In this document: positions 29,901-32,470 of the stretch, piece by piece
How positions within the stretch are numbered: position 1 is the stretch's first letter
Layout of the letters: every line of letters starts with the position of its first letter
Source: Leptothoe kymatousa TAU-MAC 1615
GTDB taxonomy: Bacteria > Cyanobacteriota > Cyanobacteriia > Phormidesmidales > Phormidesmidaceae
Assembly: GCF_018739865.1 (NCBI RefSeq)
Contig: NZ_JADOER010000003.1
Coordinates: 62,001 to 126,000 of the forward strand
Direction: 5' to 3'
Length of the DNA: 64,000 bases
Translations under genes and position numbers: made by a program
The notes under the pieces: model-generated
Database searches by the model: none
What the model was told of the DNA's origin: nothing
The model's input: the letters and a program-made list of their open reading frames with translations, nothing else

Positions 29901-30173
29901 ATGGATCCTTTCGCCATTACTTTCGTCGAGTTTCTCATCAAAGCCATTCGGGTTTACTTTATCGCAGGCTTAATTTTTGCTGTCTTGTTTTCATTGTTGG
30001 GCGTGCAGCGCACAGACCCCGGCGCTAAAAGCTTTGCCCCCTTCTTTCGTTTACTCATCATTCCAGGGGTGAGCATTTTTTGGCCCCTGTTTGCCCTCCG
30101 GCTAGTGCGTGGGAAACAACATCCAGTGGAACAAACAGCCCATCGCCAAGCGGCGAAATTCACGCAACCATAG
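29901..30173 (+). CDS. Small two-helix membrane protein, first gene of the redox cluster
   Basis: 90 residues with two hydrophobic helices (AIRVYFIAGLIFAVLFSLLG and FFRLLIIPGVSIFWPLFALR) joined by a short polar loop containing RTDPGAK. The C-terminus is basic and hydrophilic. No known domain. It is followed at 58 and 51 bp spacing by another small membrane protein and the ferric-reductase/Rieske protein on the same strand, so it is probably an accessory subunit or assembly factor of that complex. This role is inferred from position only. Confidence 0.7.
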   Translation: MDPFAITFVEFLIKAIRVYFIAGLIFAVLFSLLGVQRTDPGAKSFAPFFRLLIIPGVSIFWPLFALRLVRGKQHPVEQTAHRQAAKFTQP

Positions 30174-30230
30174 TCGCTGTTCTAGTCGCGTCTAATCGCT
30201 CAACACAACACTGTTAGCACGGAGATTCAG

Positions 30231-30455
30231 GTGATTATTTCACGTCGAAAAATCCATCTATACGCATCCATTGCCCTCGCCGTTATTCTGCCGATTATTT
30301 TTATTGCCGGCATCGTCTTTAGGCCCACCTATGCCACCGTTACTGACGACACGGGGAAACTGCTGAGCCAAGACCTCGGCAAAAGTGTTATCGCTCAGCC
30401 ACAGCAAACCAACAACCATCAGGAGAATCCCATCGCTACCTTTTTAGCAGAATAG
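30231..30455 (+). CDS. Small single-helix membrane-anchored protein, second gene of the redox cluster
   Basis: 74 residues from a GTG preceded by GGAG. Basic start (ISRRKIHLY), one hydrophobic helix (ASIALAVILPIIFIAGIVF), then a polar tail of ~40 residues predicted outside the cytoplasm. No recognised family. The helix could be a signal anchor. It lies between two other membrane redox-cluster genes and is likely cotranscribed. Confidence 0.62.
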   Translation: MIISRRKIHLYASIALAVILPIIFIAGIVFRPTYATVTDDTGKLLSQDLGKSVIAQPQQTNNHQENPIATFLAE

Positions 30456-30505
30456 TCACCGGACTATTGCTAGCAATCTCCTCGTAACGTGATGTCTTTT
30501 TTGCC

Positions 30506-31582
30506 ATGAGTGTTTCCTATAAATCCATCCAATGGAATCGACAAAAGCTGATTTACGATGCCCTGTTATTAGGCACGGTCGGCCTGTATCTGTATATCTT
30601 TTTAACGGTCGCCAGCAAAACGGGTACCAGCCTTGATTTACGAGGCATTCGCATCCGGGCCTATGGGTCTGCGGCCTTTATTTTGCTCAACGTGATTCTA
30701 TCCATTGGTCCCCTGACCCGATTGGATAAACGCTTTTACCCACTGCTGTTTAATCGACGTCACATGGGCGTCACGTTTTTCTTTCTCGCCTTGATCCATG
30801 CCATTGGCCTGAATCTGCCATTTTTGCCGTTTAAGGTGGATGGGGGGGTGCTCACTTGGTATCACGACTTTGGCAACCTCAAGCCCTTGGTCAGTTTGTT
30901 TGTGAGCAACACCGAATATGGGGATTTGATCCGTTTTCCCTTTGAAAGTCTGGGGGCTGCGGCCCTAGTCATCTTCTTTGTGATGGCGGCTACCAGCCAC
31001 GATTTTTGGCTGGTCAACCTGACTGCCCCCATTTGGAAGGCACTGCACATGGGGGTATACGTAGCCTATGGTCTGGTGGTATCCCATGTGATTTTAGGCC
31101 CCTTACAAACCAACCAGCATCCTTGCCTGACCATCGGTGTAGCCATCAGTGTTATATGGATTGTGGGCTTGCATTTGTTCACGGCCCTCAGGGAATCGAA
31201 ACTGGATGCGAAAGCTGCGGGTAGCACGGATGACGCTGGGTTTATCGACGTGGGCACCATCGCCGAGATTCCAGAAAATCGGGCCAAGATTGTCACCCTG
31301 GCAGGAGAACGTGTAGCCATTTTTAAATACGAGGGCAAACTCTCAGCAGTTTCTAATGTTTGCCAACATCAAAATGGCCCCCTAGGGGAAGGAAAGGTGG
31401 TGGATGGCTGTATTACCTGTCCCTGGCATGGTTATCAGTATCTACCGGCGGAAGGGGCTTCACCACCGCCCTTTACCGAAAAGATTCCCACCTTTGAAGT
31501 ACGCGTTGCGGGCGATCGCATCTGGGTCAACCCGATTCCGAAACCACCGGGGACCAGAGTCGAACCGGCCTTACTTGCTTAG
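30506..31582 (+). CDS. Ferric-reductase-like haem membrane domain fused to a Rieske [2Fe-2S] domain
   Basis: 358 residues. The N-terminal ~230 residues form six or so membrane helices of the ferric-reductase/YedZ fold. Likely haem ligands are His86 and His98 (RRHMGVTFFFLALIHA) and His181 and His194 (LHMGVYVAYGLVVSH). The C-terminal domain (~245-350) carries a complete Rieske motif: Cys286-x-His288 (CQHQNGPLG) and Cys305-x2-His308 (CPWHGY). The design suggests electron flow between a soluble or cytoplasmic donor, the Rieske cluster and membrane haems. Relatives (MsrQ) deliver electrons to the periplasmic molybdoenzyme MsrP. Substrate and direction here are unknown. An imperfect hairpin follows at 31584-31674. 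Confidence 0.88.
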   Translation: MSVSYKSIQWNRQKLIYDALLLGTVGLYLYIFLTVASKTGTSLDLRGIRIRAYGSAAFILLNVILSIGPLTRLDKRFYPLLFNRRHMGVTFFFLALIHAIGLNLPFLPFKVDGGVLTWYHDFGNLKPLVSLFVSNTEYGDLIRFPFESLGAAALVIFFVMAATSHDFWLVNLTAPIWKALHMGVYVAYGLVVSHVILGPLQTNQHPCLTIGVAISVIWIVGLHLFTALRESKLDAKAAGSTDDAGFIDVGTIAEIPENRAKIVTLAGERVAIFKYEGKLSAVSNVCQHQNGPLGEGKVVDGCITCPWHGYQYLPAEGASPPPFTEKIPTFEVRVAGDRIWVNPIPKPPGTRVEPALLA

Positions 31583-31583
31583 G

Positions 31584-31674
31584 GCTGGTTAAAAATTAAA
31601 ATCATGGCCTAATTCCTTGAAACCATTGCTAAAAGAGCTTTTGAGGCCTAAACCATGACGTAGTTTTTAACAGC
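31584..31674 (+). repeat. Long imperfect inverted repeat between the Rieske gene and the next gene
   Basis: The arm at about 31584-31606 (starting GCTGGTTAAAAA, ending CATGG) pairs imperfectly with 31653-31674 (starting CCATG, ending TTTTTAACAGC). It directly follows the Rieske-gene stop. It could attenuate transcription or protect the upstream mRNA end within the cluster. Confidence 0.5.
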
Positions 31675-31714
31675 TCCTAAGTGCACCTTGAATTTTTCCA
31701 TTTGGATACCTCCG

Positions 31715-32470
31715 ATGACTGAACGCGACGATTTTTATATTGGCTATGGGCCAGTGCCCCCCAGCGTGCGGCGATTGTTGCTGTGGTTTGTGCCGGTGTT
31801 GGTGCTGGGCGTCTTGGGTTTGGCCATGATCGGCCCACCGCTCCATTTTGACCAGGCCAACCCAGGGCAAATTAAGGGCAGCCAAGCATTTGAGGGTTTG
31901 CTATTGGCTGAGCCTTCCCCCCATTTATTAGTGCCAAATCCAGATACACCGGATGAGCCCTTTAAGGTATACCCCCTGTCGGGATTGAATAAGATGTCGC
32001 CGAGGCGCGCCATCATGGACAATGCGGGCAGCTGGGTCAAGCTCCAGGGTGTGTTGGTGAGCCGCAAGCCCTATGAGATGTTGGCGGCGCAAAAAGCCGA
32101 AGCCATTGAGACGCCGGCTGGGGCAGACCGCATAACAGACCAAACCCTATCCCTCGGGGAATTTGCGATCGCAGGCGAAATCGTCGATGGCAAATGCTAT
32201 CCCGGCATTATGAAACCGGGCCGCACTAAAACCCACCGGGCCTGTGCTGTTCGCTGCATCAGCGGCGGGGTACCCCCTGTTTTTCGGGCGGGCAATAAGA
32301 ATGGTCAATCGCTTTATTTCTTGCTATCTGACCTGGAGGGGCAAGCGGTGAATGATCGGGTGCTAAATATGGTGGCCGACCCAGTGGAGATCACGGGAGA
32401 AGTGCTGCAATATGGGGATTCTTTTATTTTGAAAGCAGACCCCAGCACCTATAAGCGTTTACCCGCCTAG
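31715..32470 (+). CDS. Membrane-anchored extracytoplasmic protein with OB-like domains, last gene of the redox cluster
   Basis: 251 residues from the ATG at 31715 (a TTG at 31688 is in frame). One membrane helix near the N-terminus (LLLWFVPVLVLGVLGLAMI) anchors a soluble part with two OB-fold-like strands sets (WVKLQGVLVSRKPYEML and VEITGEVLQYGDSFILKA). Between them sits a conserved-looking Cys motif GEIVDGKCYPGIMKPG plus HRACAVRCISGGVPPVF (Cys161, 177, 181; His174), which could bind metal or form a disulfide. Same strand as the Rieske fusion, 132 bp downstream. I recall similar Cys-motif proteins near such reductases, but the function is unknown. Confidence 0.75.
   Translation: MTERDDFYIGYGPVPPSVRRLLLWFVPVLVLGVLGLAMIGPPLHFDQANPGQIKGSQAFEGLLLAEPSPHLLVPNPDTPDEPFKVYPLSGLNKMSPRRAIMDNAGSWVKLQGVLVSRKPYEMLAAQKAEAIETPAGADRITDQTLSLGEFAIAGEIVDGKCYPGIMKPGRTKTHRACAVRCISGGVPPVFRAGNKNGQSLYFLLSDLEGQAVNDRVLNMVADPVEITGEVLQYGDSFILKADPSTYKRLPA

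Follow-up and report, generated by a model that had tools for sequence, protein, structure and literature searches.

Four adjacent cyanobacterial genes apparently encode one membrane machine that carries electrons

Four genes that follow one another in a cyanobacterial genome raise the question whether they make one membrane machine and, if so, which way it carries electrons. The genes lie in a window of 64,000 nt (the whole stretch of DNA analysed) on contig C3 of a cyanobacterial assembly of 4.07 Mb in 18 contigs. The features are:

29901..30173, + strand: P1, open reading frame (ORF) of 90 aa with two predicted transmembrane (TM) helices
30231..30455, + strand: P2, ORF of 74 aa with a GTG start and one TM helix
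30506..31582, + strand: P3, 358 aa, a six-TM ferric-reductase-type haem domain with a C-terminal Rieske [2Fe-2S] domain (from ORF, Pfam and AlphaFold2)
30665..31078, + strand: Ferric_reduct region of P3 (PF01794, residues 54-191)
31247..31456, + strand: Rieske domain of P3 (PF00355, residues 248-317; ligands C286, H288, C305 and H308)
31583..31682, no strand assigned: interspersed palindromic repeat in the P3-P4 gap, outside the module proper
31715..32470, + strand: P4, 251 aa with an ATG start, a TM anchor and two predicted OB-fold domains (from ORF, AlphaFold2 and Foldseek)
32195..32257, + strand: site in P4 made of C161 (32195-32197), M166, H174 (32234-32236), C177 (32243-32245) and C181 (32255-32257)

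The genes are separated by 57 nt (P1-P2), 50 nt (P2-P3) and 132 nt (P3-P4). An earlier note on this DNA had described four co-directional genes with short gaps; the place and the strand stand, but 'short' is slightly generous for the P3-P4 gap, because about 100 nt of it match a repeat that occurs about 40 more times in the genome. This repeat of about 100 bp had 41 matches in the genome, its own copy included, at 75-100% identity, and folds as a long hairpin (z -2.1). In close relatives (loci L059/L060) the gap is shorter and has no repeat; thus, the repeat looks like an inserted MITE-like element. An in-frame TTG is present upstream of P4 at 31688; homologues start at the later ATG, 31715. 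Both flanking genes, a CNNM/PaeA-like gene upstream of P1 (28163-29470) and a MATE transporter gene downstream of P4 (32537-33910), are on the strand opposite to the module, so that P1-P4 stand as an isolated unit.

Co-occurrence of the four genes in other genomes had been set beforehand as the test of the module, and they do occur together. The same four genes in the order P1-P2-P3-P4 were present in three genomes from another cyanobacterial family; all four are also on Rhizobium plasmids, where the annotation goes no further than 'hypothetical protein' and 'Rieske 2Fe-2S domain-containing protein'. When genome contigs were scanned with the P4 alignment, 171 relatives came up, and the best 80 loci were retained. 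Profile searches in 87 loci picked via P4 found P1 in 77, P2 in 79, P3 in 85 and P4 in 87. At 77 loci at least 2.2 kb of sequence was available upstream of P4, and 75 of these had the P1-P2-P3-P4 order on one strand; the exceptions were L067, where P1 was not found, and L129, which has a lone C-terminal P4 domain. The hosts are cyanobacteria, Planctomycetota, Acidobacteriota, Verrucomicrobiota, Bacteroidota, Alphaproteobacteria and others, from at least eight phyla.

As these loci had been selected by P4, a whole-genome co-occurrence test was made in planctomycetes. Full-length P4 was found in 14 of 179 genomes, and full-length P3 in the identical 14 and none elsewhere (14/14; p=4e-21, ignoring relatedness). 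A natural fusion of P3 and P4 in one reading frame was seen in two genomes (L127 and L130); P3 and P4 were in one frame at only nine loci.

Several variants of the module were seen. In the Rhizobium versions (L052:9865-10074, L053-L055) P4 is followed by a fifth gene, for a small membrane protein, and P1 is preceded by an SDR gene; farther upstream of the module, L052-L055 have a TPP enzyme without a Rieske domain. A single C-terminal P4 OB domain with the Cys/His/Met site is encoded at L129:8010-8453 and at G371:C35:190178-190495, with neither the TM anchor nor the first OB domain; at L129, P1-P3 are also absent nearby, while genome G371 also has the Rieske-POX fusion described below.

In the P3 tree cyanobacteria, Bacteroidota and Verrucomicrobiota each form one group, and the nearest relatives of the window's P3 are in Leptolyngbya and Adonisia. 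That the tree keeps each of three phyla together suggests that the module was inherited anciently within phyla and lost many times. Among other recurrent neighbours, an EamA gene lies just downstream in cyanobacteria, while YHS, TANGO2 and alpha/beta-hydrolase genes and a family of about 200 aa without a name recur in other phyla; a consistent substrate was not indicated by any of these. We considered a role specific to photosynthesis and rejected it, since most of the phyla with the module are non-photosynthetic.

The two small proteins are predicted membrane proteins, in line with the earlier note. In profile searches of Pfam and NCBIfam, no family passed its cut-off for P1, P2 or P4. P1 has the motif GVQR-x-D-x2-A ... 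FRLLIIPG ... WPL, with D39, P55, W61 and P62 at least 97% conserved in the homologue alignment; in P2 the N-terminal R6 and H9 are invariant among homologues. A broken P2 in the window's genome was considered and rejected, as close relatives (L059-L061) share the short form. Short forms of about 50-75 aa are found in the window's clade, Rhizobium and others; in the long forms of about 160-200 aa, seen in many homologues, the TM helix is followed by a further domain of about 100 aa.

P3 matched PF01794 Ferric_reduct with 47.4 bits (cut-off 28), passing the FRD superfamily threshold, and PF00355 Rieske with 57.1 bits (cut-off 20.3), with the score and the ligands of a Rieske protein. Its AlphaFold2 model (pLDDT 90.3, pTM 0.85) has six long helices and a beta domain. 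The candidate haem ligands H86/H98 (TM3) and H181/H194 (TM5), each 100% conserved in 81 homologues, fall in the third (84-100) and fifth (174-201) long helices of the model; spacings within the pairs are 12 and 13 residues. Judged from the model, this is the usual two-haem FRD layout.

The claim of an intact Rieske centre fused to the haem domain was exact to the residue number: all four ligands are 100% conserved across the 81 P3 homologues. The motifs in the window are CQHQNG and CPWHGY, and the extra disulfide cysteines of the bc1/b6f type (CTHLGC / CPCHGS) are absent from this domain. Past residue 240 Pfam found only Rieske-type domains, the FAD- and NAD(P)H-binding domains of the NOX type being absent. 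The nearest sequence and structure matches of the Rieske domain are dioxygenase-type ferredoxins (naphthalene dioxygenase ferredoxin, BphA3, CarAc); those are soluble and free-standing, whereas the P3 domain is tethered to a haem membrane domain. Dioxygenase-type Rieske ferredoxins have low potential; given this nearest kinship and the absence of the disulfide cysteines, the P3 centre is probably of low potential, too.

The AlphaFold2 model of P4 (pLDDT 90.1; three plasmid rows were left out of the structure-model alignment) has a helix at 16-43 and then two beta domains. Nearly all top Foldseek matches were OB proteins, with low whole-chain TM-scores; the best was a two-OB (tandem) single-stranded DNA-binding protein of Thermus (E 3.8e-4), to which the likeness, as modelled, is of fold alone. 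Sequence comparison of P4 with solved structures gave nothing convincing. The cysteines pointed out earlier, C161, C177 and C181, were numbered correctly and are invariant in 79 aligned homologues, as are M166 and H174, which the note had not mentioned. The conserved Cys/His/Met site is located in the second predicted OB domain; H174, C177 and C181 share one helix (172-183) of the model. Both in the window and in the consensus, arginines precede the TM helix and none follow just after it, and this positive-inside pattern points to an extracytoplasmic location of the OB domains. No Tat motif was seen in P4. If the domains are indeed outside, then, with no Tat motif, copper, zinc, haem or a redox disulfide loaded outside would be more likely at the site than an Fe-S cluster.

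Three kinds of cytoplasmic Rieske-fused enzymes recur near the module: a TPP enzyme, a glutamate-synthase-like FMN enzyme and an FMN reductase (PF03358). For the TPP enzyme (Rieske-POX; PF02776/PF00205/PF02775), the closest matches are E. coli PoxB and pyruvate oxidases. Its gene lies close to the module at a dozen loci or more and was found in 22 of 50 module genomes. In planctomycetes it is present in 6/14 module genomes versus 3/165 others (p=5e-6), and in the window's order in 6/10 versus 2/55 (p=6e-5; both Fisher, ignoring relatedness). The window's genome has it on another contig, C15 (G000:C15:80946-82883; L146:6935-8887), and the Rieske domains of P3 and POX are reciprocal best among eight compared in this genome (score 207, next 93 and 112). 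Enrichment, proximity and reciprocal-best domains, all read from sequence, support Rieske-POX as an electron partner of the module; as fewer than half of the module genomes have it, it would not be the sole donor.

The Rieske-POX fusion has about 60-80% identity across several phyla; in the window's genome an FMN_red family gene (L146:9125-9883) follows it. At about 14 loci from several phyla, a gene near the module encodes a stand-alone FMN domain of the glutamate-synthase kind (PF01645) with a Rieske domain fused to it (e.g. L100:2178-3845, L092:4809-6503 and L116:6173-7837).

A membrane electron-transfer module, as had been proposed from the window alone, is favoured by the conserved gene order, the identical set of planctomycete genomes, the two fusions and the conserved ligands. 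We consider it somewhat probable that P1-P4 encode one conserved transmembrane electron-transfer complex with P3 as a wire leading outward to P4. Most likely, the complex is NOX/MsrQ-like, with a Rieske domain instead of a flavin module and P4 as the extracytoplasmic partner. The low-potential Rieske domain, in the cytoplasm, would take the place of the FAD/NADPH module of NOX and ferric reductases; the dehydrogenase module of known FRD proteins is cytoplasmic (PMC3591440). Two stacked b haems, putatively held by H86-H181 and H98-H194, would relay electrons through the membrane. P4 would be held in the membrane by its single helix, the two OB domains facing the periplasm (or lumen), and would take the electrons at its invariant Cys3-His-Met site, and either P4 or a partner may reduce an extracytoplasmic substrate. 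P1 and P2 could be small membrane subunits for assembly or docking. In many species the probable donor is the cytoplasmic pyruvate-oxidase-like TPP enzyme with a related Rieske domain. We infer the outward direction, Rieske to haem to haem to P4, from analogy with the FRD family (PMC3591440, PMC5676040) and from the Rieske-POX link. More tentatively, we suggest the whole to be an undescribed, widespread bacterial transmembrane oxidoreductase complex, in which a two-haem FRD wire would draw electrons from a Rieske domain and pass them to a new extracytoplasmic metallo-OB family, with a new Rieske-fused 2-oxoacid oxidase as donor.

Should P4 or a periplasmic partner instead oxidise an extracytoplasmic substrate, electrons would run inward via the haems to the Rieske domain and then to cytoplasmic Rieske-fused enzymes, e.g. 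the glutamate-synthase-like FMN protein. Ferredoxin-dependent glutamate synthases are electron acceptors, which gives weight to the about 14 loci with such an enzyme nearby; also, Rieske ferredoxins commonly donate to an oxygenase. Still, inward flow is unlikely: the direction in known FRD proteins is outward, the commonest associated enzyme, Rieske-POX with E. coli PoxB as its nearest relative, is of an electron-releasing type, and an acceptor enzyme is not nearby in most module loci.

Among solved structures, PoxB comes closest to the associated TPP enzyme, and PoxB reduces quinones; MsrQ, a named FRD relative, reportedly uses quinones. The P3 haems could then exchange electrons with the quinone pool, making the module a Rieske-fed (2-oxoacid:)quinone oxidoreductase in which P4 is structural or regulatory. 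We regard this as improbable, for it leaves the invariant Cys/His/Met site of P4 and the P3-P4 fusions unexplained.

More doubtful still is a role in metal handling, where P3 would act as a cupric or ferric reductase and hand the reduced metal to P4, a chaperone for metal or haem outside the cytoplasm. The combination of Cys, His and Met ligands with a predicted OB fold in P4 would suit such a chaperone; the haem chaperone CcmE is likewise an OB protein, and YHS-domain genes lie near some module loci. The FRD superfamily includes metalloreductases (PMC3591440). Yet a conserved metal transporter or regulator was not recognised among the recurrent neighbours, and P4 matched no chaperone family in Pfam, NCBIfam or the sequence search of solved structures.

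Finally, fortuitous adjacency of unrelated membrane genes, which might be entertained since P1, P2 and P4 have no annotated family and nothing known links them to P3, is hardly credible against the conserved order across phyla (75/77), the planctomycete co-occurrence and the P3-P4 fusions.

How does the proposed outward-carrying complex compare with known systems? In the MsrPQ methionine-sulfoxide reductase system, the FRD haem protein MsrQ hands electrons through the membrane to a partner outside the cytoplasm, as P3 is proposed to do; P3 differs from MsrQ by having a Rieske domain and only a weak match to the MsrQ family NF003831 (34.8 bits, below the cut-off of 130), and the adjacent P4, unlike MsrP, is modelled with two OB domains in tandem, carries a Cys/His/Met site and has no molybdopterin family match in Pfam/NCBIfam. 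Long-form FRD proteins (NOX and ferric reductases, e.g. SpNOX and FRE) share with P3 the two bis-His haem sites in TM3/TM5 and a C-terminal electron-input module; in our module, however, a Rieske domain replaces the FAD/NADPH part, P4 is always alongside and there are two small subunits. With flavin domains absent and the MsrQ score failing, the module belongs in neither NOX nor MsrQ. Cytochrome bc1/b6f also combines a haem b membrane part and a Rieske protein in one complex. This is an analogy only: the haem part of P3 is of the FRD family, its Rieske domain has no disulfide cysteines, and no cytochrome c/f is among the conserved genes.

The view that no complex with this gene set had been described agrees with our literature search. 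It found only the FRD+Rieske architecture, which Zhang et al. 2013 (PMC3591440) list as 'M4' for a bacterial FRD protein in the legend to a figure of domain architectures; the legend also ties M4 to FMN, and no operon, partner, family or function is given there. Nothing further on operon or function was found in a search of published papers, few of them from subscription journals. Transmembrane electron transfer by FRD proteins is already known; the partner families P1, P2 and P4 are new to Pfam/NCBIfam.

If our reading is true, bacteria of at least eight phyla, among them filamentous marine cyanobacteria and Synechococcus WH7803, have a new membrane redox complex with three families outside Pfam/NCBIfam. 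It would also mean that a haem wire of the NOX/MsrQ type can be driven by a Rieske centre rather than by a flavin. The module offers a candidate donor enzyme and, in P4, a precise site for mutagenesis.
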